From a virus: DNA of 54,385 nucleotides. Positions 2,378-51,746 of the stretch are shown here, piece after piece; within the stretch, counting starts at the first letter, position 1; the number at the start of each line of letters is the position of its first letter. A model generated the notes under the pieces. That model had not been told where the DNA came from. It ran no database searches and saw only the letters and a list, made by a program, of their open reading frames with translations. The position numbers and the translations under genes are program-made. The stretch spans positions 1 to 54,385 of the IMG/VR virus record IMGVR_UViG_3300045952_000282; one strand, written 5' to 3'.

Positions 2378-2887
2378 TTAGTCGTTGTTCAGAGCCGCAA
2401 CTGCGTTCATGTCGATTTCGAGCAGCGCCGTTCCACCGTCACTGCCGCCCTCGAGATACTGCGCACCCGCGAGGACCGCGCAATCGGTGGAATCCGCCGT
2501 AGTGCGAAACGCGCCGAGCTGCTCACCGGTGTCGGCCACAACGCGCACGCGAACCGCCTCACCAGCGACGACATCCTCTTCAAGGAGAACGCGAATAGTC
2601 CCCTTGCGAAGAACAGCAACGGAAGCGCTCGGCTTCAAACCATCGTCTCCGAGGTTGTCGAGATCACTCGATCCCTTTGAATAGGCGTGTGAGTGCATCA
2701 CGACACCGAGTGGCACTGTGCCGTCGGTCGGAAGCTTGCACTCGCCTTCGGTAGTCGTGGCGACCACGAGGACGCCAAACGGAATCTCCGCCGTAGTTTC
2801 AGCGTTGAAATAAGATTGCGAGGAGAGATGTTGGTCGACAACGCCGGCAAACACTTCACGCTGCGCGTTAACTTCAGATTGAGACAT
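2378..2887 (-). CDS. Capsid decoration/cement-like protein
   Basis: 169 residues, overlapping the stop of the upstream scaffold gene (TAATG at 2887). The sequence is beta-rich: IPFGVLVVATTTEGECKLPTDGTVPLGVVMHSH is followed by ASVAVLRKGTIRVLLEEDVVAGEAV. This pattern of exposed beta strands ending in a KG-x-I-x-V-x-x-E turn is typical of structural cement proteins (DUF2190/gp24-like) encoded just upstream of DUF2184 capsids. Assignment rests on fold-like pattern and position; no catalytic residues are visible. Confidence 0.7.
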   Translation of the reverse strand: MSQSEVNAQREVFAGVVDQHLSSQSYFNAETTAEIPFGVLVVATTTEGECKLPTDGTVPLGVVMHSHAYSKGSSDLDNLGDDGLKPSASVAVLRKGTIRVLLEEDVVAGEAVRVRVVADTGEQLGAFRTTADSTDCAVLAGAQYLEGGSDGGTALLEIDMNAVAALNND

Positions 2888-4533: not shown

Positions 4534-4660
4534 CCCAACACTCCTCGTCACCGAGCTCAAGCACGAACGACTGGCCGACGCGCGGCAACTCCGTCGCCCA
4601 ACCGGAGACCGCAGTCGGATCTGCGTTGACACTGAGATCGATTAACCGGATGTGCATCAC
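4427..4660 (-). CDS. Small uncharacterised head-operon protein
   Basis: 76-77 residues. GTG 4660 overlaps the stop of the head morphogenesis gene (TGATG context), the usual sign of translational coupling. The sequence is beta-rich (HIRLIDLSVNAD, then VGQSFVLELGDEECWVTGVVV) with no motif I recognise. It lies antisense to the 3' part of the membrane protein gene at 4186-4533, so at least one of the two is under constrained dual coding. Function unknown. Confidence 0.55.
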   Translation of the reverse strand: MMHIRLIDLSVNADPTAVSGWATELPRVGQSFVLELGDEECWVTGVVVSVDASSNTFRDSEGTCFLFAFESPNRPCA

Positions 4661-5508
4661 TCGTTTGACTCTCCGAGAATGTCGTCGAAAACAGGGTCCG
4701 CAAAACAGCGACAGTTGATAGGCTCGCCCGGGAGTCCTTCTGTCGGGTGGCCCTTCGGATACTTGAAAGTTTCACCGTCGAGCTGTCGGTGAAGCGGGCG
4801 AACGCGGGCATCGTGCACGCTGCGCCAGATGAACTTCTCCACACCGAGCGCCTGATGTCGCGCGGCATTAACCTGACCGTACATCTTCCCGACCTGATCC
4901 CGTGCAATGAGTTTCGACTTCTCCTCAGCGACGCCAAGTTTTAACTCGATCTCTTCCGCTAAATGCTTATGCAAGGTACCGTTAACAAGCGCGCGCGTCG
5001 CGGCCTGCTCAATCTCCGCTAGCGTCCGCTGCGGAAGCGCGGTGATGAGTGAGACGTTCTCATTAATAAATCCTTCGATCTGCGGTACGAGATTAGGCTC
5101 TCGCGCAAACACGTTCGCACCGAGCGCCGCGTGCACCTGGCGATCAAGCTGAACACGCTGATAGGTCGCAATCTGCCGCGCAAACTTACCGGCCAGTTCT
5201 TCGACCGCCTGCAGGGAGATCGCCCGGCCCAGCGCGGCCGTTGCTTCGGCGATGAGCTGGCGCACGCGCGAGCCCTCGCCCGCGTCGGTGCGCTCGTGCG
5301 CGGCGGACTCGACAAGACGTGGCAAGGCGTCACGCAGCGGCTGGAGCGAGCGTCGCACCTCGTCAACGATCCGCAGGAGAGCCGCGGCGTACTCGCGTTC
5401 AATTGTCTTCGGGAAGACCTGGCGGGGTATACGTCGACGCGGCGGTCGAATCCCGAGCGAACGGCGCAGACGGAGCAACCGCACGGTTTCTGCGGTACGG
5501 GGATTCAC
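4657..5508 (-). CDS. Head morphogenesis protein, phage Mu F / SPP1 gp7 type
   Basis: 283 residues from GTG 5508, which shares a base with the portal stop codon. The C-terminal third carries the family signature: IARDQVGKMYGQVNAARHQ, FIWRSVHDARVRPLHRQLDG and the closing PGEPINCRC. These minor head proteins bind the portal and are packaged in the capsid. The N-terminal half is helical and Arg-rich. It follows the portal directly, the standard order in this gene cluster. Confidence 0.88.
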   Translation of the reverse strand: MNPRTAETVRLLRLRRSLGIRPPRRRIPRQVFPKTIEREYAAALLRIVDEVRRSLQPLRDALPRLVESAAHERTDAGEGSRVRQLIAEATAALGRAISLQAVEELAGKFARQIATYQRVQLDRQVHAALGANVFAREPNLVPQIEGFINENVSLITALPQRTLAEIEQAATRALVNGTLHKHLAEEIELKLGVAEEKSKLIARDQVGKMYGQVNAARHQALGVEKFIWRSVHDARVRPLHRQLDGETFKYPKGHPTEGLPGEPINCRCFADPVFDDILGESNE

Positions 5509-7064
5509 TACTCCTCGTGCTTCCGTTTGCGTGTCTTTTTGCGGGGTGCTTCGTCTTTTTTGTCGGATTCCGATGGCTCACTCGGAGCTTCGGACGCGCT
5601 GACTTCAAGCTGTTTCTCAGCGAGTTCCCGTTCGGCTTCTTCCTCATCGAGTTCCCTTTGAGACTTCACAGGCGCGTCTGCGGCCGGCTCCAGTTTCGCG
5701 CGCGCTTCGAAATCAATCACAGTCTCAAAACTGTACTCGTCACCGCCGTAGCGATTGAGCGCTACCTCTTCGGCAGACAACACGCAGTTCGTGATGTTGA
5801 TGGAGTCAGCTTGCGCCTGGATCATGCGCGCCTCCGCCATCTCTTTCTCCGTCGCTTGCCAGAGGGGACGGAAGCGGAAACTCCAATGCTCTGGCTCCTT
5901 GATCTTGAGGGCCGCGAAAGTCACCTGTGCGATGTACTCGAGACGAGGGCGCAGCTTGCGATCCTGCAGGCCGGCAATCTTATCGTACCAGAACCGGATG
6001 TCCGCGTTCCCAGTGGCGTTCAGGCCGGCCGGACTCTGTCCCATGAGGCGCGTGACCGGGATATCGCCGGCTGCGGCGATGCGAACTGCGAACCGATCGA
6101 GCGTCTCTGGCATACCGGAGATCGGAGTCTGCTGTCTCTGGAAGTCGTCTTCTTTATCGACGACGACGATACGCGAGAAGCTCCGACCCATTTCGAGCGC
6201 TTGCAGGCGCGCCTTCACAGCCGTGGTGTTGTTCTCCGCGGCCATGATGTCGAAGTCTTTCATCTTATACACGCCCTGCGCAAAATCGCGCATGAGGTAC
6301 CCGGCCGCACTCCAAGCTACACCGAAGTCGAAGAGCACGCGGCGGACGCGGCTGAGAACGGAGTCACCCCAACCCTCGTAAGGTTGATCGCCGCGCTTCC
6401 GGGAGACGCGAATCCCTGGGAAGAGAATCAGACGCGTCTCGTGAATGAGCTGCTCACTGATGAAGCCGCCGCGGCCAACACCGTGCGGACGCAGACGCCA
6501 GAGCTCGACCTGGCCGTACTTCGGTGCCGTCGGGTTCTCGTAGTATGTCTCCGGGATCAGCTCGTCCGGCTGCAATGTCGTGAGGAAGTCGAAAGAGGTG
6601 ACAGTCTTCAGGTTGAGCGGCAGCTGCCAGCTCACCTGCATATCGTTGACGCCGAGCAGGATCGCCGCGCCCCCATACGCGCGCTCGTAGGAGATCGCGT
6701 CCCATAACGCCGGCGTGAGTCCGAGCTCTTCCCACTTCGAGTGCATCTTCTCCGCGATACCCTTCGCGTCGAGATTCTTGTCGGTGGCTTCGCGCACGCG
6801 AAGCTCGAACCCGGCGCGAAGCATCTCGTCGGCGTACGCCTCGACGATCTTAGCTGCCATGTCCTCGGTGCGCCAAAGGAGCGCCGCTTCCTCAATCGGG
6901 ACGATATCAGCGCGATAACTGTCCGCACTGCGCCTGTCCGCGCTAGTTCCGAAGCCGCCGAGGACGTTTACGTAATCATCACCACGCGCGGCCTTACGCG
7001 GTGCAGGACAGAGCGGGCAGGTCCCGCCGGTAAGTGCGCGGACGGTAGAGTGGGAGCAGGACAC
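5508..7064 (-). CDS. Portal protein, DUF1073 type, with N-terminal Cys/His tag
   Basis: 518 residues from GTG 7064. The DUF1073-type core includes AAKIVEAYADEMLRAGFEL, AISYERAYGGAAILLG and, later, GDIPVTRLMGQSPAGLNATG. A Glu/Lys-rich tail follows residue ~460. It forms the portal dodecamer at the packaging vertex. Residues 1-20 (C3, H5, C16, C19 with LTGGTCPLC) are unusual for portals and closely match the N-terminus of the large terminase. The start codon is fixed by a GTCGAC-box promoter ending 7 nt upstream, implying a leaderless mRNA. Confidence 0.88.
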   Translation of the reverse strand: MSCSHSTVRALTGGTCPLCPAPRKAARGDDYVNVLGGFGTSADRRSADSYRADIVPIEEAALLWRTEDMAAKIVEAYADEMLRAGFELRVREATDKNLDAKGIAEKMHSKWEELGLTPALWDAISYERAYGGAAILLGVNDMQVSWQLPLNLKTVTSFDFLTTLQPDELIPETYYENPTAPKYGQVELWRLRPHGVGRGGFISEQLIHETRLILFPGIRVSRKRGDQPYEGWGDSVLSRVRRVLFDFGVAWSAAGYLMRDFAQGVYKMKDFDIMAAENNTTAVKARLQALEMGRSFSRIVVVDKEDDFQRQQTPISGMPETLDRFAVRIAAAGDIPVTRLMGQSPAGLNATGNADIRFWYDKIAGLQDRKLRPRLEYIAQVTFAALKIKEPEHWSFRFRPLWQATEKEMAEARMIQAQADSINITNCVLSAEEVALNRYGGDEYSFETVIDFEARAKLEPAADAPVKSQRELDEEEAERELAEKQLEVSASEAPSEPSESDKKDEAPRKKTRKRKHEE

Positions 7065-7065
7065 C

Positions 7066-7101
7066 GTCTACAGTATAACGTCGACCATGCTAGCTCTGCA
7101 A
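7066..7101 (-). promoter_or_regulatory. GTCGAC-box promoter of the portal operon (leaderless)
   Basis: On the minus strand, TTGCAG, an 18-bp spacer and TATACT (7077-7072). GTCGAC (7085-7080) and GTAGAC (7071-7066) flank the -10 box with starts 14 bp apart. The GTG start codon of the portal is at 7064, so the -10 box ends 7 nt before it and there is no room for a ribosome-binding site. Confidence 0.65.
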
Positions 7102-7156
7102 TAATGTTATGAAATCATTTGGTTTTTCAACAGGTTGAAAGTCGGTCGCTATTCAC

Positions 7157-7192
7157 TTGTGTTCGGTGAACGGTCGACGTTATAGTGTCGAC
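7157..7192 (+). promoter_or_regulatory. GTCGAC-box promoter, rightward (leaderless)
   Basis: TTGTGT (7157-7162), an 18-bp spacer and TATAGT (7181-7186). Perfect GTCGAC boxes at 7173-7178 and 7187-7192 flank the -10 box. ATG 7193 follows immediately. It is divergent to the portal promoter about 90 bp away, so both could be co-regulated by one protein. Confidence 0.65.
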
Positions 7193-7414
7193 ATGGCGAG
7201 AGAGAAGAAACCAAGCTTTCAAGTGGGTGATGAGGTTGTTCTGGCGTCGCATGTTTCGACCTCGTACTACCCGGGCGTTCTTCGCGACACGGTATTGCGT
7301 GTGTCCGCAGTTTGCGGCACGGGCACAAAACGCAATCCGTGGACGCTGCGCGTCACCGACGGTACCAACTTCTGGGGGAATGAGCCGAACGACTTCGTTA
7401 AGGTGGTGCGCTAA
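7193..7414 (+). CDS. Small SH3-like beta-barrel protein
   Basis: 73 residues from ATG 7193; a longer reading from 7157 would run through the promoter and is rejected. The sequence begins MAREKKPSFQVGDEVVLASH and continues with alternating hydrophobic strands (VLRVSAVC, WTLRVTDG). This resembles small SH3/KOW-like barrels that bind nucleic acid or protein. No specific family is recognised. It is the first gene of the rightward lysogeny module, with its own leaderless promoter, so it may be expressed in the lysogen. Confidence 0.6.
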   Translation: MAREKKPSFQVGDEVVLASHVSTSYYPGVLRDTVLRVSAVCGTGTKRNPWTLRVTDGTNFWGNEPNDFVKVVR

Positions 7415-7452
7415 CGCGCCGCCATTCTCTACCAAGCGCAAAGGAGCAATCT

Positions 7453-7647
7453 ATGTACACTGTCGAAAAACAACTGACCGCTCTCATACTCGGAACTCTC
7501 GCCCTTCTGGCAATCCTGGCGCTGTTCGGCGCCTGCGACACGTCCAGCCCACCCGAGATCGGGGAGTTGCAAACCGACTGCCCGGTAGATGTCGACGAGC
7601 TGTGCTTGATCGACAACGTTTGGCAGGAGTGTCCGGCTGTTGACTAG
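7453..7647 (+). CDS. Small putative lipoprotein
   Basis: 64 residues behind a strong AAAGGAG site 6 nt upstream. A basic start (MYTVEKQ) is followed by the hydrophobic stretch LILGTLALLAILALFGAC. The Cys could be a lipobox Cys, although F at -3 is not ideal. The mature part is short, acidic and holds three more Cys (CPVDVDELC, QEC), perhaps forming a disulfide. Its stop codon lies inside the first integrase arm-type repeat (7639-7658). Function unknown; an envelope-located lysogenic protein is possible. Confidence 0.55.
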   Translation: MYTVEKQLTALILGTLALLAILALFGACDTSSPPEIGELQTDCPVDVDELCLIDNVWQECPAVD

Positions 7648-7658
7648 TTGTTGACTAG
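7639..7658 (+). repeat. Integrase arm-type sites, left pair
   Basis: Two direct copies of GTTGACTAG at 7639-7647 and 7650-7658, 11 bp apart. A second pair in the same orientation lies on the other side of the attP core at 7869-7889. This arrangement fits arm-type binding sites of a tyrosine integrase. Confidence 0.6.
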
Positions 7659-7704
7659 CCGGCGGCTCTGAAGCGCTTTACAGCGTGGAACTGTCTGGAT
7701 TCAT

Positions 7705-7749
7705 TGGAGCCGATGGACAGGATTGAACTGTCGACCTACGGTTTACGAA
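7705..7749 (-). other. attP: attP core: 3' half of a tRNA-Thr(CGT)-like gene
   Basis: The minus strand reads as the anticodon loop (TTCGTAA), 3' anticodon stem, variable loop AGGTC, T-arm (GACAG-TTCAATC-CTGTC), acceptor strand CATCGGC, U73 and CCA. The 5' half that would pair with these stems is absent, so it is not a working tRNA. It is the segment shared between phage and host tRNA gene at an integration site. It lies 400 bp upstream of the integrase. The identity block predicts insertion into a host tRNA-Thr gene that is restored by the phage copy. Confidence 0.75.
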
Positions 7750-7868
7750 TTCTTGGATCTACCGTCCCACGAACGTCCGTTCGGTCCCGGTCGCGCCTAA
7801 CATGCCTGATTCTAACGCAGGGTGATTCAACTCACGTCCCGGTCCGTCCCTCCGAGAACGCACCGCGT

Positions 7869-7889
7869 GTTGACTAGTCTGTTGACTAG
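7869..7889 (+). repeat. Integrase arm-type sites, right pair
   Basis: GTTGACTAG at 7869-7877 and 7881-7889, 12 bp apart, in the same orientation as the left pair and about 120 bp beyond the attP core. The repeats lie just upstream of the chosen start (7918) of the next gene. Confidence 0.6.
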
Positions 7890-7917
7890 TGAGCCGGAAA
7901 AACACGACACTGACCTC

Positions 7918-8148
7918 ATGGCAAACGAACCTGAATGGAAGCCGATAGCCTGGCGCTACGAAACAGCAACCCTCCTAGCGGAGGTTTGGGAGACGGTTCA
8001 CGGAACGGTTCTATGGCGCATTCGTGACCGCGCAGGTCGCGTTGTAGCGGAAGGCGGCGCGGAAGACATGCCAGCCGCTCAACTCCGTGTCGCGCGTGAT
8101 TTAGAGAGATGCCTAACTGGCGACCTCAGGGTGACGCCGATTAGATGA
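7918..8148 (+). CDS. Small protein coupled to integrase
   Basis: 76 residues from ATG 7918 (MANEPEWKPIAWRYET). A longer reading from 7822 would cross the arm-type repeats and looks non-coding. The sequence suggests a small beta sheet (TATLLAEVWETVHGTVLWRIRD) followed by a helix. Similar short proteins are common in phages but unassigned. Its stop overlaps the integrase start (ATGA at 8145), so the two are translationally coupled. Confidence 0.55.
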   Translation: MANEPEWKPIAWRYETATLLAEVWETVHGTVLWRIRDRAGRVVAEGGAEDMPAAQLRVARDLERCLTGDLRVTPIR

Positions 8149-9404
8149 AGGTCCACTTCACGAAGCGCAGCCTTGAATCCCTAGAACCGCCGCGGGAAGG
8201 CTTCCAGCGCGTCGTCTGGGATACCGAGCTCCCGGGCTTCGGCGCGGTCGTCGGCCGACGCGGGATCACGTTCGTCGCGAACTTCCGCGCGAACGGGAAG
8301 CTCCGGCGGATGAAGATCGGCCAGCTAGGCGCGCCGCGGCCGGCCGGCGGGACCTGGACGCTCGCCGATGCGCGCAGGCGCGCGCGGGAGATCCTCGGCC
8401 AGGTCGCCGGAGGCGAAGACCCTAGCGCCGAACTCCGCGCGAACAAGGAAGCGCTCACGCTTGAAGAGGGGATCAAGCTGCATGTCACCGACATGCGGAA
8501 GCGAAAGTGCAGCGAGCGGTCGATCGAGACCTACGAAGAAGAGCTCGGCCGACACCTGAAAAACTGGCTGGATCGCCCGCTGACCGAGCTCACCGGTCTG
8601 ACGCTGCACAAGATACACAGCAAGCTAGAAGAACACCCACACGTCGCGAACCGCGTCGTTGCCGCAGTCTCCGCGGTCTGGAACACGGTCGACCGACTCC
8701 ACGAGCTCCCGGGTCGCAATCCTGCGTCACGCGTTCGACTGTACAGCGTCGAACCGTCGCGCCAGCGGATCGAAGATGAAGACCTCCCGGACTGGTACGC
8801 ACGCGTCCAGACCCTCACGCCGATCCGGCGCGACCTCTACCTAACATTTCTGTTCACCGGTCTGCGCTCCGAGGACGCGCGACACATCCGCTGGAACGAA
8901 GTAGACCTCGAGCGCGGCTCGCTCTACCGGCCGGATCCGAAGGGCGGCTCGAAGAAAGCGTTCACGCTCCCGCTCCCTAACACGATCGTTCAGATATTCA
9001 AACAACGCCAGGCGGAGAACGCGATACTGTTTGCACCGCACGGTGGCGATCATGAGTGGGTGTTTCCCTCGCGCTCGCGCAAAACCGGGAAGGTACAACC
9101 GGTCGCCGAGCCGAAGGAGCGCCGGACAAAGGACGGCAAGCGTAGCCGGAAGTCCGCCGACCTCGAGCAGTACCTACCCGGACCACACACGCTCCGGCGA
9201 ACCTACATCAGCGTCGGGCGTGAGATCGGGATCGCAGAAATAGACATGCACGCGCTCGCAAACCATTCATTTTCGAGCGGTAGAGTTCAGGATCAGTACG
9301 TCCGCCAGGCGTTCCAACACCTGGCTACCTGCCAAGCGCGCATCGAGGCCGCGCTCTGGACGCGGATCTCACTTTCCGACTTGCTACCGTCGACGTCGCC
9401 GTGA
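8145..9404 (+). CDS. int: Tyrosine integrase, P4 type
   Basis: 419 residues. The N-terminal arm-binding domain resembles DUF4102 (FTKRSLESLEPP, GFGAVVGRRG, IGQLGA), followed by a core-binding domain (~105-195) and the catalytic domain. All catalytic residues are visible: R241 (TGLRSEDARHIRW), K266 (DPKGG), H348 and R351 (HTLRRTY), H374 (LANHSF) and nucleophile Y385 (VQDQY). It catalyses phage integration and excision at the tRNA-like attP core located 400 bp upstream. The adjacent excisionase-like gene supports a functional temperate module. Confidence 0.95.
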   Translation: MKVHFTKRSLESLEPPREGFQRVVWDTELPGFGAVVGRRGITFVANFRANGKLRRMKIGQLGAPRPAGGTWTLADARRRAREILGQVAGGEDPSAELRANKEALTLEEGIKLHVTDMRKRKCSERSIETYEEELGRHLKNWLDRPLTELTGLTLHKIHSKLEEHPHVANRVVAAVSAVWNTVDRLHELPGRNPASRVRLYSVEPSRQRIEDEDLPDWYARVQTLTPIRRDLYLTFLFTGLRSEDARHIRWNEVDLERGSLYRPDPKGGSKKAFTLPLPNTIVQIFKQRQAENAILFAPHGGDHEWVFPSRSRKTGKVQPVAEPKERRTKDGKRSRKSADLEQYLPGPHTLRRTYISVGREIGIAEIDMHALANHSFSSGRVQDQYVRQAFQHLATCQARIEAALWTRISLSDLLPSTSP

Positions 9405-9414
9405 TAGCGTCGAC
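9381..9414 (+). promoter_or_regulatory. GTCGAC-box promoter for excisionase operon
   Basis: TTGCTA (9381-9386), a 16-bp spacer and GATAGC (9403-9408). GTCGCC (9395-9400) and GTCGAC (9409-9414) flank the -10 box, 14 bp apart; another GTCGAC is at 9389. ATG 9418 lies 9 nt past the -10 box. The promoter overlaps the last codons of the integrase gene. Confidence 0.5.
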
Positions 9415-9417
9415 TCC

Positions 9418-9600
9418 ATGGGGTCAGAGCAGTACGTCGACGAGCGAGAGTTAGAGCGCCGGCTCAACATCTCGGCGAAGACCTGGCGCAACTGGCGCGC
9501 CGCACGAAAGGGTCCGCCGTATCGAAAGCTAGGGAAGCGGGTTGTCTACCTGTGGACCGAGGTGCAGGCGTGGATCGACAGGCAGAAGGTGGCCGCGTGA
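9418..9600 (+). CDS. Excisionase-like HTH protein (MerR/AlpA type)
   Basis: 60 residues. The sequence ERELERRLNISAKTWRNWRA followed by GPPYRKLGKRVVYLWTEVQAWI is a typical winged HTH of the HTH_17/AlpA class found in excisionases and small phage regulators. Placed directly after the integrase with its own promoter, it most likely acts as the recombination directionality factor, perhaps also repressing int. It would bind DNA as a small multimer near attP. Confidence 0.75.
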   Translation: MGSEQYVDERELERRLNISAKTWRNWRAARKGPPYRKLGKRVVYLWTEVQAWIDRQKVAA

Positions 9601-10400
9601 GCGTCTTACCGCTGCATCACACGCACTCGCAGATCATTCGGCTCCTGCGGTGTCTTAAAAACACACCTGCAAACCCGAACACTACAAAACGCTGGTCAAC
9701 ATCTGCGCTCGTGCGCGCTGCGCGAATTAAATACCGGATCCTTACGCACGCCGTAAGGTGCGGAGTCGTGAAAATCAATCCGTGGGCCATCACCGACAAA
9801 GGAGAAAACTGGCTTCGTTGGGAAGATGGACAACTTAAAAGGAAAGCTAAGCTCATGCACGCCGACACAACAACCACCTGCCGCAACATTCTATTTTTAC
9901 TGTTTACACAACCACTCAATCCACTGACCGACGCCGCTAGGACCACGTCAGAGCTGCTGCGAGCGGTCGACTACTCCGCGAGTTCAAAGGAAGGGCGCCG
10001 ACTGCTGACCGCCTTGGCTAAAGACGGTTTGGTTTATCAGCCGGTCCCGGGCTACTGGCTTCTCACCGAAGCCGGGATAAAACAGCACGAACAGTTGAGT
10101 GTAATAGACAGACTAAAAACGATAAAAGAGCCAGTTGTCGCTGAAGATGGGCTGCAAAAAGCACGACGGCTCGTCGATCAACAATATAAAAAACCCCCTG
10201 TCAGCGATCTGGATCGCGTGGTGCGCCTCGAACGAAAAACTGCGGCGCAGAGGAAGACTCTCAAATACTACACCACACGAATCGAAAGTCTTTCGACCGC
10301 TCTGAAGAAATGCGAAGCCGAGCACAAAGAATTTCTTAATGCGCTTGATATGCTTCGTGCCCATCTTGCCCATCTTGGCGCGCTCGGAGCTCTGAAGTGA
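9597..10400 (+). CDS. Winged-helix-like protein with C-terminal coiled coil
   Basis: 267 residues from GTG 9597, overlapping the previous stop (GTGA). The first part contains two regions that look like helix-turn-helix units (TKRWSTSALVRAARIKYRIL and LTDAARTTSELLRAVDYS), each followed by wing-like strands. The C-terminal third is a charged coiled coil (RTAAQRKTLKYYTT-like to HKEFLNALDML). Its codon use is more AT-rich than its neighbours (AAA-rich), suggesting recent acquisition. It could be a DNA-binding regulator of the lysogeny module; no named family is recognised. Confidence 0.6.
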   Translation: MSVLPLHHTHSQIIRLLRCLKNTPANPNTTKRWSTSALVRAARIKYRILTHAVRCGVVKINPWAITDKGENWLRWEDGQLKRKAKLMHADTTTTCRNILFLLFTQPLNPLTDAARTTSELLRAVDYSASSKEGRRLLTALAKDGLVYQPVPGYWLLTEAGIKQHEQLSVIDRLKTIKEPVVAEDGLQKARRLVDQQYKKPPVSDLDRVVRLERKTAAQRKTLKYYTTRIESLSTALKKCEAEHKEFLNALDMLRAHLAHLGALGALK

Positions 10401-10618
10401 TCGCCACGTCGAGCAGCTTCGAAGATGCCACCTTCGACGACGAGCCGGACGATGAAACCGTCGAGCTACTCGTTCAACAAGGCTGGCGTGATTTTTTCAA
10501 CGGCCGGCCTAACGGGATATGGGCCGACATCAGTTGGTACTGGCTCGGGTGGGGTATGGCCCACGAAGCCGAACAAGCGCACAAGCTAGAAAAAGTCGAA
10601 GAAAGGAGAGCAGCATAA
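10397..10618 (+). CDS. Small acidic protein
   Basis: 73 residues from GTG 10397 with a GTGA overlap. The N-terminus is very acidic (DATFDDEPDDETVELLVQQ), followed by an aromatic stretch (WADISWYWLGWGMAHEA) and a charged helix. No family is recognised. It belongs to a chain of five coupled small genes (9597-11311), suggesting one transcript from the excisionase promoter. Confidence 0.5.
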   Translation: MIATSSSFEDATFDDEPDDETVELLVQQGWRDFFNGRPNGIWADISWYWLGWGMAHEAEQAHKLEKVEERRAA

Positions 10619-10773
10619 TGGAAGAAGTCACCGAGAAACTATCCGCCGAAGAGCTCGTTGTTCGCGAGCGTCTCGAAGACGCCGAGCTGGAGCGCTTGCT
10701 CCACGAGCTGGTGCTCGACCCGGCACACGCGGAGACGTGGGAGATCCTCGCGAGAGTGACGGTGTGGCTGTGA
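10618..10773 (+). CDS. Small helical protein
   Basis: 51 residues from ATG 10618, overlapping the previous stop (TAATG) behind an AAGGAG site. It is almost entirely helical and acidic (EELVVRERLEDAELERLLHELV). Function unknown; support comes from the ribosome-binding site and tight coupling on both sides. Confidence 0.5.
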   Translation: MEEVTEKLSAEELVVRERLEDAELERLLHELVLDPAHAETWEILARVTVWL

Positions 10774-11096
10774 AATTAACACCTAGAAAACTAGATGCAC
10801 TCGAGCAAGAGTTTATCAACACCAAATCTCACGATGAGCTAGGCTGCTGGGCGCATAAACACGCCGATGAAATCATCACTGCCTTACGTGAGGCGTGGGC
10901 GGAGCGGGACCTGGCGCGATCGGAATATACAGAGCTGCTCTGCAGCACACCGCTTGGACCGGATATCGCCCGCGAAGCCCGTGCCGACGAGCGTGAGGAG
11001 TGCGCGAAGATCGCTGACAAATATGATCAGGACGAGTGTGGCTCTAACTTCTGCTACTGGGTTGCAAGAGACATCCGCGCCCGGGGGAAACTATGA
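10770..11096 (+). CDS. Hypothetical phage protein with conserved C-terminal ADEREECAKIA motif
   Basis: 108 residues from GTG 10770 (GTGA overlap); a longer frame from 10737 is not preferred. The helical N-terminus (PRKLDALEQEFI) is followed by a C-terminus of the common phage form AREARADEREECAKIADKY ending VARDIRARG. That form is widespread in small phage proteins of unknown role. It is in the coupled operon. Confidence 0.55.
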   Translation: MKLTPRKLDALEQEFINTKSHDELGCWAHKHADEIITALREAWAERDLARSEYTELLCSTPLGPDIAREARADEREECAKIADKYDQDECGSNFCYWVARDIRARGKL

Positions 11097-11311
11097 CGCT
11101 ATCAAGCCACATTCAACACCTTCGCTCGCGCGGCTACAAGATCACGAAGATCTATCTGCGCGCCCGTCCGCGACGACCTTTATCAACCGCTCCGGTTGAG
11201 GTCGCCCCGGATCTCTGCGCGGAGTATCACACCGACTACATCATCGAGACCGAAGGCCCGAAGAGACGGCGGAAGAGTCGAGCGAAAGCTAAGACGATTG
11301 AGACTTCGTAA
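11093..11311 (+). CDS. Small basic protein
   Basis: 72 residues, start overlapping the previous stop (ATGA). It is basic at the C-terminus (PKRRRKSRAKAKT). The middle (DLCAEYHTDYIIETEG) looks beta-structured. It might bind nucleic acid, but no family is recognised. It is the last gene of the coupled chain. Confidence 0.45.
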   Translation: MTLSSHIQHLRSRGYKITKIYLRARPRRPLSTAPVEVAPDLCAEYHTDYIIETEGPKRRRKSRAKAKTIETS

Positions 11312-11441
11312 ATCGCCCGACGCCGAACAGGAGCAGACCTACTAGGCAGAGGACACTCCCACTCTCGAAGCTGCCCTGCTGACAGGCCGTTGGACTGACC
11401 GCGGCCAGGAGCGCGCCGACTCCCATAAATAACTTACTCAC
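11289..11441 (-). CDS. Possible small two-helix membrane protein
   Basis: 50 codons from GTG 11441 to TAG 11289. The product has two hydrophobic segments (LFMGVGALLAAVSPTAC and VLCLVGLLLFGVG) separated by a short polar loop. It overlaps the 3' end of the preceding rightward gene by 23 bases. The upstream ribosome-binding site is weak, so the call rests on the membrane-protein-like composition. Confidence 0.3.
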   Translation of the reverse strand: MSKLFMGVGALLAAVSPTACQQGSFESGSVLCLVGLLLFGVGRFTKSQSS

Positions 11442-11740
11442 CGCACCAGCGTATCAGCCGGAAAGTGTAAGTCGGAAGGTCCGCGCTTAATTTTGCGCGT
11501 TGTCGCCGTAACGCGCGGCTAAAAATGCATGCTGGCCAGCTACTTAGCTCTCCGGGCATGCGCTGTGCATTAAATAAATGCATGCACCCACATCTAGGAA
11601 GCGCTAGCCGACGTCGCCCGACAACCTCTCACCTAAATAAGCCCGACAAAGTGCAGATCTTGCGCGCTCCGTGTTACGTTTTAAGGCAGGGTGACGGGAG
11701 TCCCGCATGATTTGCGTGGCGTCGGGGCGCCCGGATTAGT
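11442..11740. other. Intergenic stretch with GCATGC palindromes
   Basis: No convincing gene on either strand. ATGCATGC-type palindromes occur at about 11526-11533 and 11578-11585 with a GCATGC between them (11556-11561), and an A/T-rich element lies near 11490. These may form alternative hairpins. No Rho-independent terminator with a T-run is seen. Confidence 0.3.
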
Positions 11741-12160
11741 ATGGGCACACGTCGTACACGTACAACGCACCATGAGCGACTCGCCGATGAAGGTTGGGCT
11801 CACGAGACGACGACGCTTTACAGCAAAGCATTTCATAGTGGCTTTTTTGCGCTGGTTGCCTATGTACCGGAGTTCGGGTGGGGCTGGAGCTTCCGACATC
11901 GCAACTGCACCATTACCCTCGCGAGCGGATTCGTTCGCAACCTTCTGCAAGCGCGAACCGCCGCTCTCAACGAGTTCGTCTCGTACAAAGAGGCCGCCCG
12001 TAAACTCCTCGAGCAGTCGCAAGGACACCACATCCTAGCCGCGCAGGCGCTCCGCACGCGCGCGGGCGACAACATCGACGCGATGTCTCCGTACAAAGCT
12101 CTTCTAGAGCTACTTGAAGACGCAGAGAATTGGGACAGCGAAGACCTGCCGGAAGACTAG
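11741..12160 (+). CDS. Hypothetical protein convergent with terminase
   Basis: 139 residues from ATG 11741. It has a basic N-terminus, an aromatic beta-rich centre (FHSGFFALVAYVPEFGWGWSF) and a helical, acidic C-terminus (YKALLELLEDAENWDSEDL). Its stop overlaps the stop of the terminase gene by 4 bases in convergent orientation. No family is recognised. The initial residues are Arg/Thr-rich and the true start could lie slightly later. Confidence 0.5.
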   Translation: MGTRRTRTTHHERLADEGWAHETTTLYSKAFHSGFFALVAYVPEFGWGWSFRHRNCTITLASGFVRNLLQARTAALNEFVSYKEAARKLLEQSQGHHILAAQALRTRAGDNIDAMSPYKALLELLEDAENWDSEDLPED

Positions 12161-13719
12161 CCGACCTTGCCTTGTTCGGTGCGGAGTCCGAGCGCCTTCA
12201 TCTTCGTCGCGTAGCTTGACGGAGTGCGGAAGTAGTTGAGCGCCTGCGTGAAGACGTCGACCTGATCGTCGCGCTTGCCGGCCGGGAACGCGCAGACCTC
12301 CGCAAGGAATTCTTCGACCCACGGCGCGCCGCGCGGCAACGCCACGTTCCCGCCTTCGACGTAGCTCTGCACCGCCATCGCCCGCGACTCTTTATCCGTA
12401 CCGACTTCGACTTCGATGATTCCCGGGATGTCGCGCCGGAGCTCTTCGACCACGTCCGGCCCCATGGCTTTCATCTCAACGATCACTTTGCGCGCGCGCC
12501 AGCGCTCACGCATGTCTTTAATCCGCCGCACCGTCTCGCGGAGCGAGATCTTCCCCTTCCACACTTCCAGCATGAAACGGTCGGGACCTTTGCGCGCAAC
12601 CGCGGCGATCGCGGTGTTCGAGCCCTTCAAGGTCTTCTTAGCCGCGCAGTCCACGGAGATAACGATATCCTCGAAGTTTTGCGGCTGTTCATCGTAATAC
12701 TTGAACCAGGAATATTTGAAGATCCCGCCCTCGCGCGCGAACGGGGCCTGTTGATACTGAGTCTGAAACTTGAACTCCGACTTCGCCCGCTCCGCTTCCA
12801 CGGTCTCAAGCGGGAAAATTTGAGGGCTGAGGCACTCGCCTTCGACCATTCGTATGTCGTACTCGCCGAGTGGCGAAGAACGACGCTCGCCGTCGAACAA
12901 CATCGGCAGACTAACCCGAGCCCAGCCGTGCTGCTCGGCCCAGGCGGCCAGGTCTTCGACGTGCGTCTTCTGACAAATCATGACCCGGGTCGAGAAGACC
13001 ATGCTGTTGACGCGGTTATCGACGGTGTTCACGTACCGGTCAATCACCGCTAGGCGCTGCACGTCCGATTCAACGTTGTTCGGGTCGTGCGGGTCGTCGA
13101 TCACAAGCATGTCCGCGCGTTCACCGACGATGTCCGCGTCCAATCCGCGCGCCGCGCGAAATCCGCCGATGGTGTTCAAGAATAACTCGACGCCGTCCGC
13201 GTCCCGGCGAATCTCCCACTCCGGGTGAAACGCCTCCTGGTACCACTCCGAGCGAATTAGGTCGCGCGCCATTCGCGAATCGCGAATCGCGACACGCGGG
13301 TTACACGACAAGCAAATTGCTTTCAGACCTGGCCAGCGGATCCACGCCCATGGGATTAAATACGTGAGGAATCGCGACTTCATGCACCCGGGCGGGATGG
13401 TGATGAGAAGGTTCTGCAAGCGCTGTCGGTAGGTCGTGTCGTCGTTCGTCTTTGCCCAATCCTCGACCAACACCTGCAGGTGATTCGCGAGGACGTCGAA
13501 GTACCAGACCCACGTGAGTTTCGCGGTCTCAACCCCGCTATTTGCCCACGCCTCGCGGAAGAACCGGGCGAAGGAGCGCCGGCACTGCTCGGCCAGGCGC
13601 TGCTGCGGCGTGATTGCGGACAGTACCGCGGTCACGATCGGTTTCACCTGACGGCCCGGCGGACAGACGGGACAGGTCCCGCCGGTCAGTTCGCGGATCG
13701 TGGTGTGGGTGCAGTTCAT
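12157..13719 (-). CDS. terL: Terminase large subunit with N-terminal Cys/His tag
   Basis: 520 residues from ATG 13719, which overlaps the stop of a small upstream gene (ATGA); a further in-frame ATG at 13740 is rejected. The ATPase half has a variant Walker A at 109-115 (PPGCMKS) and Walker B (DMLVIDDP, 203-210). The RNase H-like nuclease half shows VISVDCAAK and the closing DDQVD. It translocates and cuts concatemeric DNA at the portal. Residues 1-20 (C3, H5, C16, C19) form a tag nearly identical to that of the portal protein. Confidence 0.93.
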   Translation of the reverse strand: MNCTHTTIRELTGGTCPVCPPGRQVKPIVTAVLSAITPQQRLAEQCRRSFARFFREAWANSGVETAKLTWVWYFDVLANHLQVLVEDWAKTNDDTTYRQRLQNLLITIPPGCMKSRFLTYLIPWAWIRWPGLKAICLSCNPRVAIRDSRMARDLIRSEWYQEAFHPEWEIRRDADGVELFLNTIGGFRAARGLDADIVGERADMLVIDDPHDPNNVESDVQRLAVIDRYVNTVDNRVNSMVFSTRVMICQKTHVEDLAAWAEQHGWARVSLPMLFDGERRSSPLGEYDIRMVEGECLSPQIFPLETVEAERAKSEFKFQTQYQQAPFAREGGIFKYSWFKYYDEQPQNFEDIVISVDCAAKKTLKGSNTAIAAVARKGPDRFMLEVWKGKISLRETVRRIKDMRERWRARKVIVEMKAMGPDVVEELRRDIPGIIEVEVGTDKESRAMAVQSYVEGGNVALPRGAPWVEEFLAEVCAFPAGKRDDQVDVFTQALNYFRTPSSYATKMKALGLRTEQGKVG

Positions 13720-13892
13720 ACACCACACTCCGAACAACATCGGAAAGGGTAGTTCTCAACCGGGCCGGTTAGGTCGGCCAGCTGCTCGGTGACTTCGGCG
13801 CGTTCGGACTGGTGCGGCCGCGGTTTGCAGGCCGGACAGTCGCGAAGACCCGATCGCGAACAGTGTCGCTCGCGCCGACGACTGCGACTCAC
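13716..13892 (-). CDS. Small zinc-ribbon protein upstream of terminase
   Basis: 58 residues from GTG 13892, with AGAGG about 6 nt upstream and its TGA overlapping the terminase ATG. The product carries RHCSRSG, then DCPACKPRPH and the closing FRCCSECGV. Two CxxC knuckles about 40 residues apart suggest a zinc ribbon. It is coupled to terL, so it may assist packaging. The gene is short enough to be missed by length filters, but its spacing, codon pattern and Cys pairs support it. Confidence 0.55.
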   Translation of the reverse strand: MSRSRRRERHCSRSGLRDCPACKPRPHQSERAEVTEQLADLTGPVENYPFRCCSECGV

Positions 13893-14279: not shown

Positions 14280-14690
14280 CTACTGGATAGCCAGCTCGGT
14301 CAAAGCTTCTCTATCTTCGCTCAGGTGAGCATGAGCTCGCTCCAGAGCCGCTAACTCGTCGTCGGACAGGTATCGGGCCAGCTCGTTGCCAATCTGGGCA
14401 GGCTCGACTTCCTGGACACGCAGGGTCGCAGGCGCTTGACCCCAGCCGCGGTCGTAGAGCAGCTTGGCCGCTTGCACGACAACGGCGTTCGCTGTGTGGG
14501 GATCCATCGCAATGTCGTAAACCTTACGCGTTAACTTAGCGAAATCCACTACATCGCGGACCATTGCGGCGAGACCTTTTGGCCGCCCGCCGCCAGGTAT
14601 CGGCGGGCTTCCCGGTAAAATCCTTCCGGTTTTTGGGTCGCGAAGCGGTTTGAGTGTTTTCGCGGCCGGTTTGTGTCCTTTGGTAGGCAT
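14280..14690 (-). CDS. Probable small terminase subunit (DUF5681-like)
   Basis: 136 residues from ATG 14690 (MPTKGHKPAAK). ATG 14750 would add 20 low-complexity residues. The GRPKGLAAMVRDVV segment after a Pro/Gly-rich N-terminus resembles DUF5681. The helical centre (HTANAVVVQAAKLLYDRGWGQAP) resembles the helical core of that family, which often precedes large terminases. The C-terminus is acidic and helical. It would recognise the packaging site. The region upstream of 14690 has better coding quality in another frame (see 14536-14766), so the N-terminus is uncertain. Confidence 0.6.
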   Translation of the reverse strand: MPTKGHKPAAKTLKPLRDPKTGRILPGSPPIPGGGRPKGLAAMVRDVVDFAKLTRKVYDIAMDPHTANAVVVQAAKLLYDRGWGQAPATLRVQEVEPAQIGNELARYLSDDELAALERAHAHLSEDREALTELAIQ

Positions 14691-14766
14691 ATGTAGGGTC
14701 GTTGCGGTCGATGTAGGCGACTTTGATTTCGAGGCCCCCGTCAGGCCCATTTGGCTCGAAAAACAA
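14536..14766 (-). CDS. Overlapping small reading frame, TTG start (uncertain)
   Basis: 76 codons from TTG 14766. The first ~28 residues (FEPNGPDGGLEIKVAYIDRN) look like genuine protein, whereas the rest, overlapping the DUF5681-like gene, does not. The reverse is true for the DUF5681 frame. This pattern fits either a short coding segment ending shortly after 14690 or a frameshift joining both parts. GTCGAC boxes at 14798-14803 and 14820-14825, with TTGATG nearby, may form a promoter. Confidence 0.3.
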   Translation of the reverse strand: MFFEPNGPDGGLEIKVAYIDRNDPTYAYQRTQTGRENTQTASRPKNRKDFTGKPADTWRRAAKRSRRNGPRCSGFR

Positions 14767-14903
14767 GGAGTCTCAATCGCAGCTTACCACACCTTGCGTC
14801 GACGCGCCATCAATTTCCAGTCGACCGCCGACGAAGCTCAGCCAAAAACAAGGTCGAGTCCGTTCCATTCTGCTCGCCTGCTTCACACAACCTGTCCGTC
14901 AAC

Positions 14904-14976
14904 GGTACGTAGTTCGTTCTCCGGCCTCCTACGGAGAGCCGGAACGAACCCGTACGTACCAGCGTTCCAGAACGCT
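14904..14976. repeat. Nested inverted repeats built from GAACG units
   Basis: Arms 14904-14925 and 14938-14960 pair through GGTACGT/ACGTACC, GTTCGTTC/GAACGAAC and CCGGC/GCCGG with small bulges. They are followed by a near-perfect hairpin AGCGTTC-CA-GAACGCT (14961-14976). Further GAACG units continue to about 14995. They lie directly downstream of the winged-helix gene and upstream of the terminase genes. Possible roles are a terminator, a protein-binding array or a packaging site. Confidence 0.6.
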
Positions 14977-14997
14977 ACTAGAACGAACCGGAACGGA

Positions 14998-15606
14998 CTA
15001 CCTCTTCCTGACCGATTTACCCACGAGCGAGTTCCCCCTCCGACGTCTCGCCGCCCGGAGCGGACTATCCTTCTTCGGCCCACGCGCCTGTCCGTCTAAA
15101 TCCCACGTGTAGGTCTTCTTCCGAGGTGACGCCTTATCCACCGACACGAGGGCGTTGTACTCGAGCCGGTTCAAAGCCGAGTGCAGTTTAGTCTCATTAG
15201 CACCGCTCAGGAGCTTCAACTCCTGGTGACTCACCGAGCGAGGGTAGACCGCCTCGATAAGCCCTTGGAGCCACGGGTAAAGCCTCTCCGTGCCCGTCTC
15301 ACCCTCCGGCTCATACCGCCAGAGCCAGAGCCGTGGCGCGCCCAGTATCGCCAGCGACAGCGCTTTCCCGTTCTCCGCCAGTCCTTCGAGCTCTCCCCGC
15401 GTCTCGTCGACGCCCTTTCCGAGCTCTTCCGCCAACTTGTCGACGTCGGACGGTTGATAGTCGATAAGTTGCTGGATTGGGTTAGTACCGCGGGCCACCG
15501 TTTTCGTCGCCGCAGTAGTACCCGCACTCTCGAGCCGCGCGAGGCGTTTCTCGATTTTCTTGAGGAACTGTAGGACATCTCCCTTGTCGGCTTCTTTTCG
15601 TTTCAT
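14998..15606 (-). CDS. Coiled-coil and winged-helix DNA-binding protein
   Basis: 202 residues from ATG 15606. An N-terminal coiled coil (LKKIEKRLARLESAG) leads into a helical linker, then a winged helix (about 135-185: SVSHQELKLLSGANETKLHSALNRLEY followed by strand residues KKTYTWDL) and a basic tail (AARRRRGNSLVGKSVRKR). It is divergent from the primase-helicase gene, with a cluster of GNGCAAC repeats between them, a good position for a regulator or replication initiator. Alternatively it could be a packaging DNA-recognition protein, as it lies upstream of the terminase genes. Confidence 0.65.
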   Translation of the reverse strand: MKRKEADKGDVLQFLKKIEKRLARLESAGTTAATKTVARGTNPIQQLIDYQPSDVDKLAEELGKGVDETRGELEGLAENGKALSLAILGAPRLWLWRYEPEGETGTERLYPWLQGLIEAVYPRSVSHQELKLLSGANETKLHSALNRLEYNALVSVDKASPRKKTYTWDLDGQARGPKKDSPLRAARRRRGNSLVGKSVRKR

Positions 15607-15689
15607 ACCCGTTCAGTGGAGCACGAAGCGTGCCGGTGAGTCAACGTTCATTCGTTTACGTGTATTCAGTCATCTAGCGAACCGTCGAC

Positions 15690-15728
15690 GTGCAACACGT
15701 TGTGCAACGGTGGCGCAACTGGGGCAAC
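15690..15728 (+). repeat. Four direct GNGCAAC repeats (operator or iterons)
   Basis: GTGCAAC at 15690-15696 and 15702-15708, GCGCAAC at 15713-15719 and GGGCAAC at 15722-15728, spaced 12, 11 and 9 bp. They lie between the divergent winged-helix and primase-helicase genes, just upstream of the primase promoter. A binding array for a regulator or initiator is likely. Confidence 0.5.
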
Positions 15729-15756
15729 ACTCGCCAGTGAGGCCCCCAGTCGACGG

Positions 15757-15789
15757 TTGACTCCTGTGCGTCGACGGTGTACAGTGGAC
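15757..15789 (+). promoter_or_regulatory. GTCGAC-box promoter of primase-helicase
   Basis: TTGACT (15757-15762), a 17-bp spacer and TACAGT (15780-15785). GTCGAC (15770-15775) and GTGGAC (15784-15789) flank the -10 box, 14 bp apart, and a further GTCGAC is at 15749-15754. The leader to TTG 15878 is about 85 nt. Confidence 0.65.
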
Positions 15790-15877
15790 ATACTTACCGC
15801 CCGTCCGCTTCCGCAGGTGTTCGACCTGACCCCTTGAGCCCACGGAAGCGACGCGGCATTTTTAGGGGTCACAGAGC

Positions 15878-18094
15878 TTGATAGTCACCTATTTCGCCCG
15901 CGGCTTGAAAGACATCTCGACGTCAAACGTTGTTGAGATGACGTGGGAGCAGCTGGTCGAGTCGCTCAAAACCCACGAGCGTCGAGCCAATAAAGAAGGC
16001 CCGGGGTTTGCGCCGACGGAGTTCAAGAAAGAGCGCTGCACGTGCGGAATGATGCACTGTCCACGCGAACGCGGTCATCGCATTAACCAGAACGTTGTAC
16101 GAGTCCACGCCCTGGCGCTGGACCTAGACAAAGGCTTCGACGGTAGCGCGATGACCATCGAGGCGGCGAACGCGGTACTCGAGAAACTCGTCGCGCGTGG
16201 CGTGGAGTTCTGCGTCTACTCGACCCATAGCTACAAACCGCCCGAGAAGGCGGCCCTACGCGCGCTTGTGCGTCTTTCTCGTCCAGTCGAGGCCGCGGAG
16301 TGGGAGAGGTTCTGGCACGCGGCGATTGGCTACCTCGGTATCCCCGTCGGCACCGGTTCGCAGAAAGGTAAAGCCGATCCGCCCGCGCGGTTCTGGTACT
16401 TGCCGTCCGCACCGGAGGGTGCGGAGGTTCTGGCCGGTAGTTTCCCCGGCGCCCCGCTTGACGTCGACGCTCTCCTGGCGAGTGCGCCGGCGCCCGAGCA
16501 GAAGAAGGAAAAATCGACCGGGATTTCTTACACCGACTTTCCCGAAGCGGACCGGAAGACCGTCGAGGCGGCGTGGACCGCGCTTCTAAAACACGGGCCG
16601 CACGTGCAGGGCCAGTCGTCTGACGGACACACCTTCCAGGCGTGTGCGATAGCTTTGAACGATTGGGCTCTGTCGGATGAGATTGCTTGGCCGTTAATCG
16701 AAGCGTGGAACAAGAGCAGTCAACCGCCCTACCCAGAAGACAAGCTACGCGACACGTTCGAGCGCTGTGCTAAACGTTACGCCACAGGTGAACCCGGGAA
16801 GGCGCGAGCGGATCATATCTTCGCGGAGGTGATGAAACCACTCATCCCAAAGCCTGAGGCGCCGGAGCTGGCGCCTGAAACGACGCACGAGTTTAAACCG
16901 GCATTGCGCGCGGATGAGATCTCGAAGCTGGAACGCAAGCCGAAGAAGAAATACGCGACATGGTGTAAAGCGCTCGACTTCGCGCTCGGAGGGGGTTTGT
17001 GGACTCGCCGTGTGACCACGATTTGTGCTCCACCTGGAGCCGGCAAAACCGCTTTCGTAACTCAGACAACGTTATACCTCGAACCGACGATTCCAGCGTT
17101 ACACATCAGTACTGAGCTTGATACCGAAGAAATGGTGTCGCGTTACGACGGTAACGCAAGCAATCGCTCATGGTCGCAGCTAGACGAAAATGCGATTAAA
17201 TGGTGTGACGCTCTAGATGGAAAACGTATCCACTTCATTGGCTGTGACGATCTACCGGCCGAGACTGACAAGGTGTTCGAGCTGATTGAGCAGAACATCG
17301 CCGCGCTCAAAGATAAATATGGTGTCGCGCCGCTGCTTGTCGTGGACTACGTACAAGACATTGTCCGCGGTGCCAGCGACGACAAGAAACGCGGAGCCGT
17401 CGGTATGGCAATCAAAGCTCTACGTCAAATAGCGGTGCACCACGACTGTGTTGTGATTGCGGTCTCGAGTGTTAGCCGCGGATTCTATAGCGGCGCGCAA
17501 ATCGAAAAGATGCGCGAGAATGATGATGCGCGTGTGTTTCTGGCCGCAGCGAAGGAGTCGGGTGACATCGACTTCGACTCCGGTGCGGTGCTTTTTCTTG
17601 ATGTAGACCCATCCGAAGATGGGAACGATCAAAACGCGCGGATTGCGATTGCGAAAGCTCGAAGCGGTCATCCGGGACGATTCGTAGGTGCGAAGTTCAC
17701 CGGCTTGACCGGGCGCTGGGCTGAGTCGATTGAGGCCGCCGAAGCAATGAGACCTGAGTCGCGCGCAGAGCGCAAACGGCTGAAACAGGCGACCACGGAC
17801 GCAGAAATCGTATTACGGATGGTAAGAGAACTGCACATAAAGAATGAGCACTTGGCGAAAACCGTTCTGGCCCAGAAGTGTGGCGGAAACTATAAACGGA
17901 TGTTGAGTGTGGTCGAACTCTTACTCGACGACGGACGTCTGGAGTCCTGCACCGAGTTTAATCTGCGCGGAAATAAGAACGTGGAGAAGATATGGCCTGC
18001 AGGTACGATACCTATGCCCGCGCCTGCAATCTCGAGCACAGAAGCGTTAACCGGGATCGAGAAGATTATAACTAACCGTAAACGCACTGATTAG
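15878..18094 (+). CDS. Bifunctional PrimPol-like primase / DnaB-type helicase
   Basis: 738 residues from TTG 15878, with AGGGG upstream. The N-terminal domain carries D82 and D84 (ALDLDKGFD) and H117 (YSTHSY), as expected for archaeo-eukaryotic primase-like folds. A Cys/His cluster (CTCGMMHC, 54-61) precedes them. A RecA-type helicase follows, with Walker A APPGAGKTAF (about 383-392) and Walker B LLVVDYVQDI. The C-terminus is helical. It should prime and unwind at the phage origin. It is the first gene of the early rightward region and has its own promoter. Confidence 0.85.
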   Translation: MIVTYFARGLKDISTSNVVEMTWEQLVESLKTHERRANKEGPGFAPTEFKKERCTCGMMHCPRERGHRINQNVVRVHALALDLDKGFDGSAMTIEAANAVLEKLVARGVEFCVYSTHSYKPPEKAALRALVRLSRPVEAAEWERFWHAAIGYLGIPVGTGSQKGKADPPARFWYLPSAPEGAEVLAGSFPGAPLDVDALLASAPAPEQKKEKSTGISYTDFPEADRKTVEAAWTALLKHGPHVQGQSSDGHTFQACAIALNDWALSDEIAWPLIEAWNKSSQPPYPEDKLRDTFERCAKRYATGEPGKARADHIFAEVMKPLIPKPEAPELAPETTHEFKPALRADEISKLERKPKKKYATWCKALDFALGGGLWTRRVTTICAPPGAGKTAFVTQTTLYLEPTIPALHISTELDTEEMVSRYDGNASNRSWSQLDENAIKWCDALDGKRIHFIGCDDLPAETDKVFELIEQNIAALKDKYGVAPLLVVDYVQDIVRGASDDKKRGAVGMAIKALRQIAVHHDCVVIAVSSVSRGFYSGAQIEKMRENDDARVFLAAAKESGDIDFDSGAVLFLDVDPSEDGNDQNARIAIAKARSGHPGRFVGAKFTGLTGRWAESIEAAEAMRPESRAERKRLKQATTDAEIVLRMVRELHIKNEHLAKTVLAQKCGGNYKRMLSVVELLLDDGRLESCTEFNLRGNKNVEKIWPAGTIPMPAPAISSTEALTGIEKIITNRKRTD

Positions 18095-33892: not shown

Positions 33893-33941
33893 GTCGACGA
33901 TAACCCGAAGAACGTCCCGATGTCGACGGTAAACCGTCGAC
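33893..33941 (-). promoter_or_regulatory. GTCGAC-box region upstream of the sigma-factor gene
   Basis: Three GTCGAC boxes at 33936-33941, 33922-33927 and 33893-33898. The first two are 14 bp apart. On the minus strand TCGACA (33926-33921), a 17-bp spacer and TTATCG (33903-33898) form a plausible promoter. The leader to ATG 33724 is about 165 nt and contains no credible gene. Confidence 0.5.
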
Positions 33942-37926: not shown

Positions 37927-38304
37927 TTAGAAAGCAATTGCGCCGACAGTTCCGCCAATTATCGCGGCCAGGCCGACGGCAGTGAGCCACAAGACGCGCG
38001 ACGAGCTAGCCGACTCTCGATAGAACTTCTTTTCCGCTTCGCAGCGGGTCCGATCTTTCTCGAGTGTTCGCACGTGCGCATCAAGTTTGTCGTGAACAGT
38101 TTCGCTCAGGATATAGGACGGTGGCAACGCTAAACCGTCGACACCTTCGATTTTTACTGTGAATGGTACGGTAACATGTAGATATTCCGTCGGTGGCGTC
38201 AACGGAATAACGTCGAAAGAGGGGTCGGCCGCCACGCTCGCAGGTCGGAGCAGGAACGCAACGAGCGCAGCAGCCGTTACCACCAAACGTTTACGGGTAT
38301 TCAC
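37927..38304 (-). CDS. Signal-peptide protein with C-terminal membrane anchor
   Basis: 125 residues from GTG 38304 (GGAG 6 nt upstream). A signal peptide (RKRLVVTAAALVAFLLRPASVAADP), a beta-rich periplasmic part and a helical stretch (DKLDAHVRTLEKDRTRCEAEKKFY) are followed by a C-terminal helix (VLWLTAVGLAAIIGGTVGAIAF). It is possibly an envelope lysis or spanin-like partner of the lipoprotein at 38875-39054, but its topology differs from classical spanins. Confidence 0.55.
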   Translation of the reverse strand: MNTRKRLVVTAAALVAFLLRPASVAADPSFDVIPLTPPTEYLHVTVPFTVKIEGVDGLALPPSYILSETVHDKLDAHVRTLEKDRTRCEAEKKFYRESASSSRVLWLTAVGLAAIIGGTVGAIAF

Positions 38305-51718: not shown

Positions 51719-51724
51719 GTTCAA

Positions 51725-51746
51725 AGTATAGCGTCGACGGGTCGAC
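51725..51746 (-). promoter_or_regulatory. GTCGAC-box promoter of tail sheath (leaderless)
   Basis: On the minus strand, two GTCGAC boxes (51746-51741 and 51738-51733) are followed by GCTATACT (-10 TATACT at 51730-51725), TTGAAC and GTG 51718. The -35 region is poor, which suggests help from an activator or phage sigma. The layout mirrors the protease promoter at 18091-18126. Confidence 0.65.

Follow-up and report, generated by a model that had tools for sequence, protein, structure and literature searches.

A Cys/His N-terminal tag shared by the large terminase and the portal protein of an uncultured phage

Little is understood of the way in which an empty procapsid draws in its own terminase-DNA complex, and most portal N-termini cannot be seen in structures. 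The closest described tag is DUF5681 (PF18932), listed in Pfam as a domain of unknown function. Like the tag reported here, it is a short N-terminal segment common to a terminase subunit and the portal, and it occupies the same place on the portal. Unlike it, DUF5681 has no Cys/His residues, carries a basic GRP motif and is paired with the small terminase (TerS), the DNA-recognising subunit, rather than with the large one (TerL). Our literature search, with most subscription papers outside its coverage, found no description of a function for DUF5681 or of the Cys/His tag; a first-pass annotation of this DNA had likewise known of no such paired tag. Portals of family PF06381, including those of Pam3 (8hds) and E217 (8fvh), have the same fold and family as the portal studied here; we found no mention of a Cys/His tag for portals of this family, and the N-terminal 96 residues of the E217 portal were likewise not built (PMC10329688). 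TerLs of PHROG 38 / Terminase_6C have the same catalytic core and fold as the TerL studied here, whose 20-residue Cys/His leader is an addition seen only in four related phages. In phi29, the portal N-terminus makes the connector-pRNA contact and helps attach the packaging motor; this tail acts through pRNA and has no zinc motif, and we treat the likeness as a lead only. Both protein families are known; the pairing of the tag and the tail swap proposed below are new.

Genome and packaging genes

The window, that is, the whole stretch analysed (54,385 bases, a virus record from an uncultured phage), has overlapping ends (1-300 and 53977-54276, 92% identity by repeat finder) and is therefore probably a circular phage genome; the imperfect terminal repeat would fit either circularity with two variants of the genome or an overlap produced in assembly. 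On the minus strand, a probable TerS is followed by a 58-aa CxxC protein, TerL, a 5-kb block of plus-strand genes, the portal and the head genes:

1409-2359, minus strand: major capsid protein
2378-2887, minus strand: cement-like protein
4657-5508, minus strand: Mu F-like head protein
5508-7064, minus strand: portal protein, 518 aa, GTG start (Pfam Phage_portal_3)
7005-7064, minus strand: N-terminal tag of the portal, codons 1-20, where relatives have a GRP tail
7066-7085, minus strand: palindrome GTCGAC-N8-GTAGAC that contains a TATACT box and stops 1 bp short of the portal start codon
8145-9404, plus strand: integrase, within the 5-kb plus-strand block between terL and portal
12157-13719, minus strand: TerL, 520 aa (Pfam Terminase_6C, PHROG 38, fold matches)
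13660-13719, minus strand: N-terminal tag of TerL, codons 1-20 (C3, H5, C16, C19), the same tag as in the TerLs of L033, L078 and ctsHD2
13716-13892, minus strand: 58-aa CxxC...CxxC protein, its stop overlapping the terL start (ATGA)
14280-14750, minus strand: probable TerS, assigned from its motif and its position upstream of terL

Profiles and fold together identify TerL as a large terminase with an ATPase and an RNaseH-like nuclease: it matched the Terminase_6C nuclease profile (4.4e-13) and PHROG 38 (8.5e-77), and its fold matched full-length phage terminases including 8dgc, D6E and T4 gp17. The portal belongs to Phage_portal_3 (PF06381; 5.8e-77 over residues 63-421), with the Pam3 portal 8hds as its nearest solved relative by sequence (7.5e-65) and the FCWL1, T1 and E217 portals as other solved relatives. 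The probable TerS matched no Pfam or PHROG family. Its N-terminal region holds a degenerate GRP motif, PGSPPIPGGGRPKG, translation may in fact begin at an ATG further on, and its LYDRGWGQAP segment resembles the LADRG(A/L/W)GK of the L033, L078 and L080 TerS. Near the integrase gene, a stretch at about 7705-7752 on the minus strand looks by eye like the 3' half of a tRNA and is a candidate attP; neither ARAGORN nor Rfam gave a match for it.

A tag common to TerL and portal

TerL begins with MNCTHTTIRELTGGTCPVCP and the portal, initiated at GTG, with (M)SCSHSTVRALTGGTCPLCP. This GTG, used here rather than ATG, is the only portal start that takes in the tag, because two codons further upstream the frame is closed by a stop. 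Both leaders carry the pattern C-x-H-x10-C-x2-C with ligands at positions 3, 5, 16 and 19, exactly as the first-pass annotation had described, and its statement that the DNA is about three-quarters identical and includes a 14-bp exact block was equally accurate. Counted from the start codon, 46/60 nucleotides are identical over the first 60 and 14/60 over the next 60, the similarity beginning at the start codon and ending at residue 20. The repeat finder returned 54 nt at 81% (7006-7059 and 13661-13714), and the exact block, ACCGGCGGGACCTG, has exactly two copies in the window, with none expected in shuffles. Upon searching the whole record with TerL, the portal N-terminus was matched at E = 1.2e-6. 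At the level of sequence, these data establish that the two tags are homologous, their common origin following mainly from a core in which 12/17 residues are identical and from borders that are sharp.

The DNA itself speaks to how the pair arose. Identity amounts to 44/57 nucleotides against a mean of 38 expected from the peptides and local codon usage (P = 0.0098, random synonymous back-translation), and the 13 residues shared after the start use the same codon in eight cases (5.1 expected, P = 0.08) and a different one in five. Such likeness above codon expectation favours copying over convergence. Among all ORFs of the window, the tag was found in no other. Its presence on many unrelated proteins of one genome, which had been named beforehand as a finding that would count against a docking role, was considered and did not hold in any of the three genomes looked at, those of the window, ctsHD2 and L078.

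The same tag occurs at the same place on the TerLs of three relatives: ctsHD2 (MW202816.1; VICNHKILAAKNGGACPIC), L033 (MTPTCKHVALRTPDGRCLVC, where the H-to-C spacing is one residue shorter) and L078 (MESPQNIPCTHTVIRKINNGKCPLC, which has a longer leader). These TerLs are 36-40% identical overall to that of the window, and M1, C3, H5, G14, C16 and C19 are the only leader positions invariant in all four. In a tree of 37 TerL cores, the tagged proteins formed one group (support 91/95) requiring one change; the tree took in three of them, L078 having been found later and not placed. About a hundred further loci with related TerLs were examined, near-copies included, and had no tag, and a search of 50,697 phage records with the tag alone gave chance matches only. 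DNA patterns of the tag run against IMG/VR hit no packaging protein, one search returning nothing and another 12 unrelated ORFs, the latter with a pattern that could not match L078 because of its longer leader. In 386 genomes of one cyanobacterial phylum, TerL relatives were present, none tagged among those read. Judged from the ligands kept at 36-40% identity and from the single tree group, the tag on TerL is of old standing in this group and under constraint there.

The first-pass annotation had called the tags possible zinc knuckles, a class that often binds nucleic acids. In favour of this assignment, the four ligands C3, H5, C16 and C19 are invariant, together with G14, in the four TerLs, and the ligands are present in the portal copy; against it, TerL and portal matched no Pfam zinc family, and the tag itself has no counterpart in Pfam or among PDB sequences and is therefore not assigned to any named zinc-finger family. 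The tag probably binds zinc. The AlphaFold2 model of TerL (mean pLDDT 87) gives the tag values of 64-68, with a short helix at residues 6-12 followed by GG and a CPxC turn; the linker that starts at about residue 21 has values near 50. Portal residues 1-50 have no predicted structure (pLDDT 40-51). Both tags thus appear, in the models, to sit on flexible leaders.

Portal tails and terminase tags in relatives

Among the portals of relatives that were examined, 84 of them in one survey with near-copies included, none has the zinc tag; in ctsHD2, L033 and L078, it is on TerL and not on the portal. Instead, these three portals (that of L078 in degenerate form) and those of L081, L082, L084, L086 and L100 carry a basic, DUF5681-like GNPxGRP-type tail, eight in all, with Pfam DUF5681 matches in ctsHD2 (2.7e-5) and L100 (1.1e-5) both slightly below the curated cut-off. 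In the portal tree, the window portal falls in a group whose six other members are all GRP-tailed, ctsHD2 lying just outside, although the forks that place the window portal are weak and open (SH-aLRT 80-83). Alignment set VSCSHSTVRALTGGTCPLCPAPRKAARGDDYVNVL of the window portal opposite MPFQKGKSGNPRGRPRKDANKSDGMVNAL and MSFKKGVSGNPAGRPRKDASDAADYV, with PRK-x-A common at the border. Its CPLCPAPRK aligns to GNPRGRPRK, the join being visible as GRPRK / CPAPRK; the window portal itself does not have the DUF5681-type tail, since it reads CPLCPAPRK instead of GNPxGRP and PRK alone remains. Because of the portal tree, the TerL tag in three relatives and its absence from their portals, the window portal most likely lost its GRP tail to a copy of the tag on TerL and not the reverse. 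A zinc-tagged portal is known from one genome only, which counts against the reading of its role favoured below.

In several relatives, the GRP tail of the portal has a terminase counterpart of its own. In L033, TerS (9634-10008) and portal (14587-16008) have a GNPxGRP N-terminal tag in common, beginning with MPPWQKGQSGNPKGRPKG (DUF5681, 4.6e-8) and MPFQKGKSGNPRGRPRK, respectively; L081, L082 and L084 are alike, and the portal leader of L078, RGNPNWKKGGPSPNPTGK, is similar to the TerS leader of L081, MGNPGWRKGGPSPNPRGRP. The GRP tag is found at the TerS N-terminus of L033, L078, L081, L082, L084, L080 and L094, and it co-occurs with the portal tail (5/6 versus 2/38 loci, P = 1e-4; with near-copies merged, 3/4 versus 2/32, P = 0.005; motif calls curated by hand in both counts). 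In ctsHD2, the portal tail is present and the ORF at the TerS position has no GRP motif. A GRP-motif protein also lies directly before terL in Rhizobium phage RHph_N3_2, and in Acetobacter phage phiAX1 one is followed by a TerL-sized ORF and then the portal. The TerS/portal GNPxGRP pair is apparently a second, undescribed tag shared between terminase and portal. AT-hooks combine a GRP core with basic flanks and bind the minor groove; PRGRPRK (L033 portal) and RTRGRPKG (L078 TerS) look AT-hook-like, with no match to Pfam AT_hook, and the GRP tags may bind DNA by analogy with these elements.

Possible roles of the copied tag

We give about an even chance to an explanation in which a mini zinc-knuckle of TerL was copied onto the portal in place of the GRP tail, such tails binding the targets of their terminase counterparts and aiding recruitment. 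The mini zinc-knuckle would originally belong to TerL in a small phage clade, and a copy of its coding stretch would have come to lie at the 5' end of the portal gene, displacing the basic GNPxGRPRK tail. The portal N-terminus would then be a flexible tail that accepts terminase-type tags, TerS-type GRP in relatives and TerL-type zinc here, and that binds what the terminase counterpart binds, either the packaging DNA or a terminase surface. By raising the local concentration of the packaging complex, the portal-borne module could help to bring DNA and terminase together at the empty portal vertex, either ahead of motor assembly or while it proceeds. We infer zinc binding, binding of nucleic acid or a partner, and recruitment for the tags themselves, and favour interchangeable tails of this kind that would bring DNA or terminase to the portal. 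The likely replacement of the portal tail by a TerL tag, among phages in which other portals have one in common with TerS, suggests that recruitment is a function of the portal N-terminus. More tentatively, in this phage group the portal N-terminus may serve as a general swap slot holding a copy of whichever recruitment tag the terminase uses, portal and terminase being addressed to the same target; if true, this would be a previously undescribed addressing code for packaging-motor assembly.

A possible but doubtful alternative is that the target of both tags is a single protein, either TerS or some host factor, and not nucleic acid, the portal mimicking TerL and so recruiting the terminase-DNA complex. 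As mimicry predicts, portal tails match TerS tags in relatives and the TerL tag here, and to this extent the earlier suggestion of a common partner survives in its general form. However, a single partner would need two binding modes for tags of such different chemistry, and the partner that had been suggested, the 58-aa zinc-ribbon protein at 13716-13892, is rejected as a general one: about 21 kb around each of L033 and L078 hold no small Cys-rich counterpart near the packaging genes, although the TerL tag is in both. In ctsHD2, a 54-aa protein with two CxxC pairs is encoded just upstream of the portal gene (L004, 43388-43549).

We consider it unlikely that the portal tag is a neutral accident, in which a duplicated 5' end of terL rescued the portal start after a rearrangement with the lysogeny genes that now separate the two, and has no role on the portal. 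A tagged portal in one genome only, the 5-kb plus-strand integrase block between portal and terL and a portal start adjoining a palindrome would all fit such an event. Yet five of the 13 shared residues have different codons while the ligands, GG and most others are kept, and the replacements are mostly conservative, as in an older and apparently constrained copy.

Direct docking of the two tags in a zinc-stabilised motor joint, the function first proposed for them, appears quite unlikely. One phage has both tags, and TerL and portal do meet during packaging; the tag is nevertheless on TerL only in three relatives, which had been named in advance as a finding adverse to docking. In HK97, TerL has its C-terminal nuclease domains below the portal in the motor and its N-terminal ATPase domains distal to it (PMC10359639). 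Portal N-termini are usually unresolved whiskers or capsid contacts (PMC7617512), residues 1-96 of the E217 portal were not built (PMC10329688), and it is the clip that contacts the motor. Because of this published geometry, contact between the tags is unlikely in an HK97-type motor and would still be possible during recruitment. Finally, the independent origin of two unrelated zinc-knuckle leaders is highly improbable. Unrelated proteins do have short N-terminal CxH...CxxC motifs of the same spacing, but the 12/17 core identity, the DNA identity above codon expectation (P = 0.0098), the E value of 1.2e-6 and the sharp borders all speak against it.

Two further observations concern these genes. 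By fold, TerL is matched best by the terminase of phiV-1 in its complex with the defence protein Avs3 (8dgc). Terminase and portal are both sensed by Avs proteins, and leaders changed on just this pair might be relevant to such sensing. The element before the portal gene is one of nine palindromic GTCGACGTTATANTGTNGAC matches in the window (up to 3 mismatches; 0.04 expected), among them those at 7066-7085 (minus), 7173-7192 (plus), 9395-9414, 15770-15789, 33922-33941, 38198-38217 and 51719-51738. At least two immediately precede a start codon (the portal GTG and that of the ORF at 7193), each with a -10-like TATAxT, which suggests phage-wide operators and perhaps leaderless transcripts.
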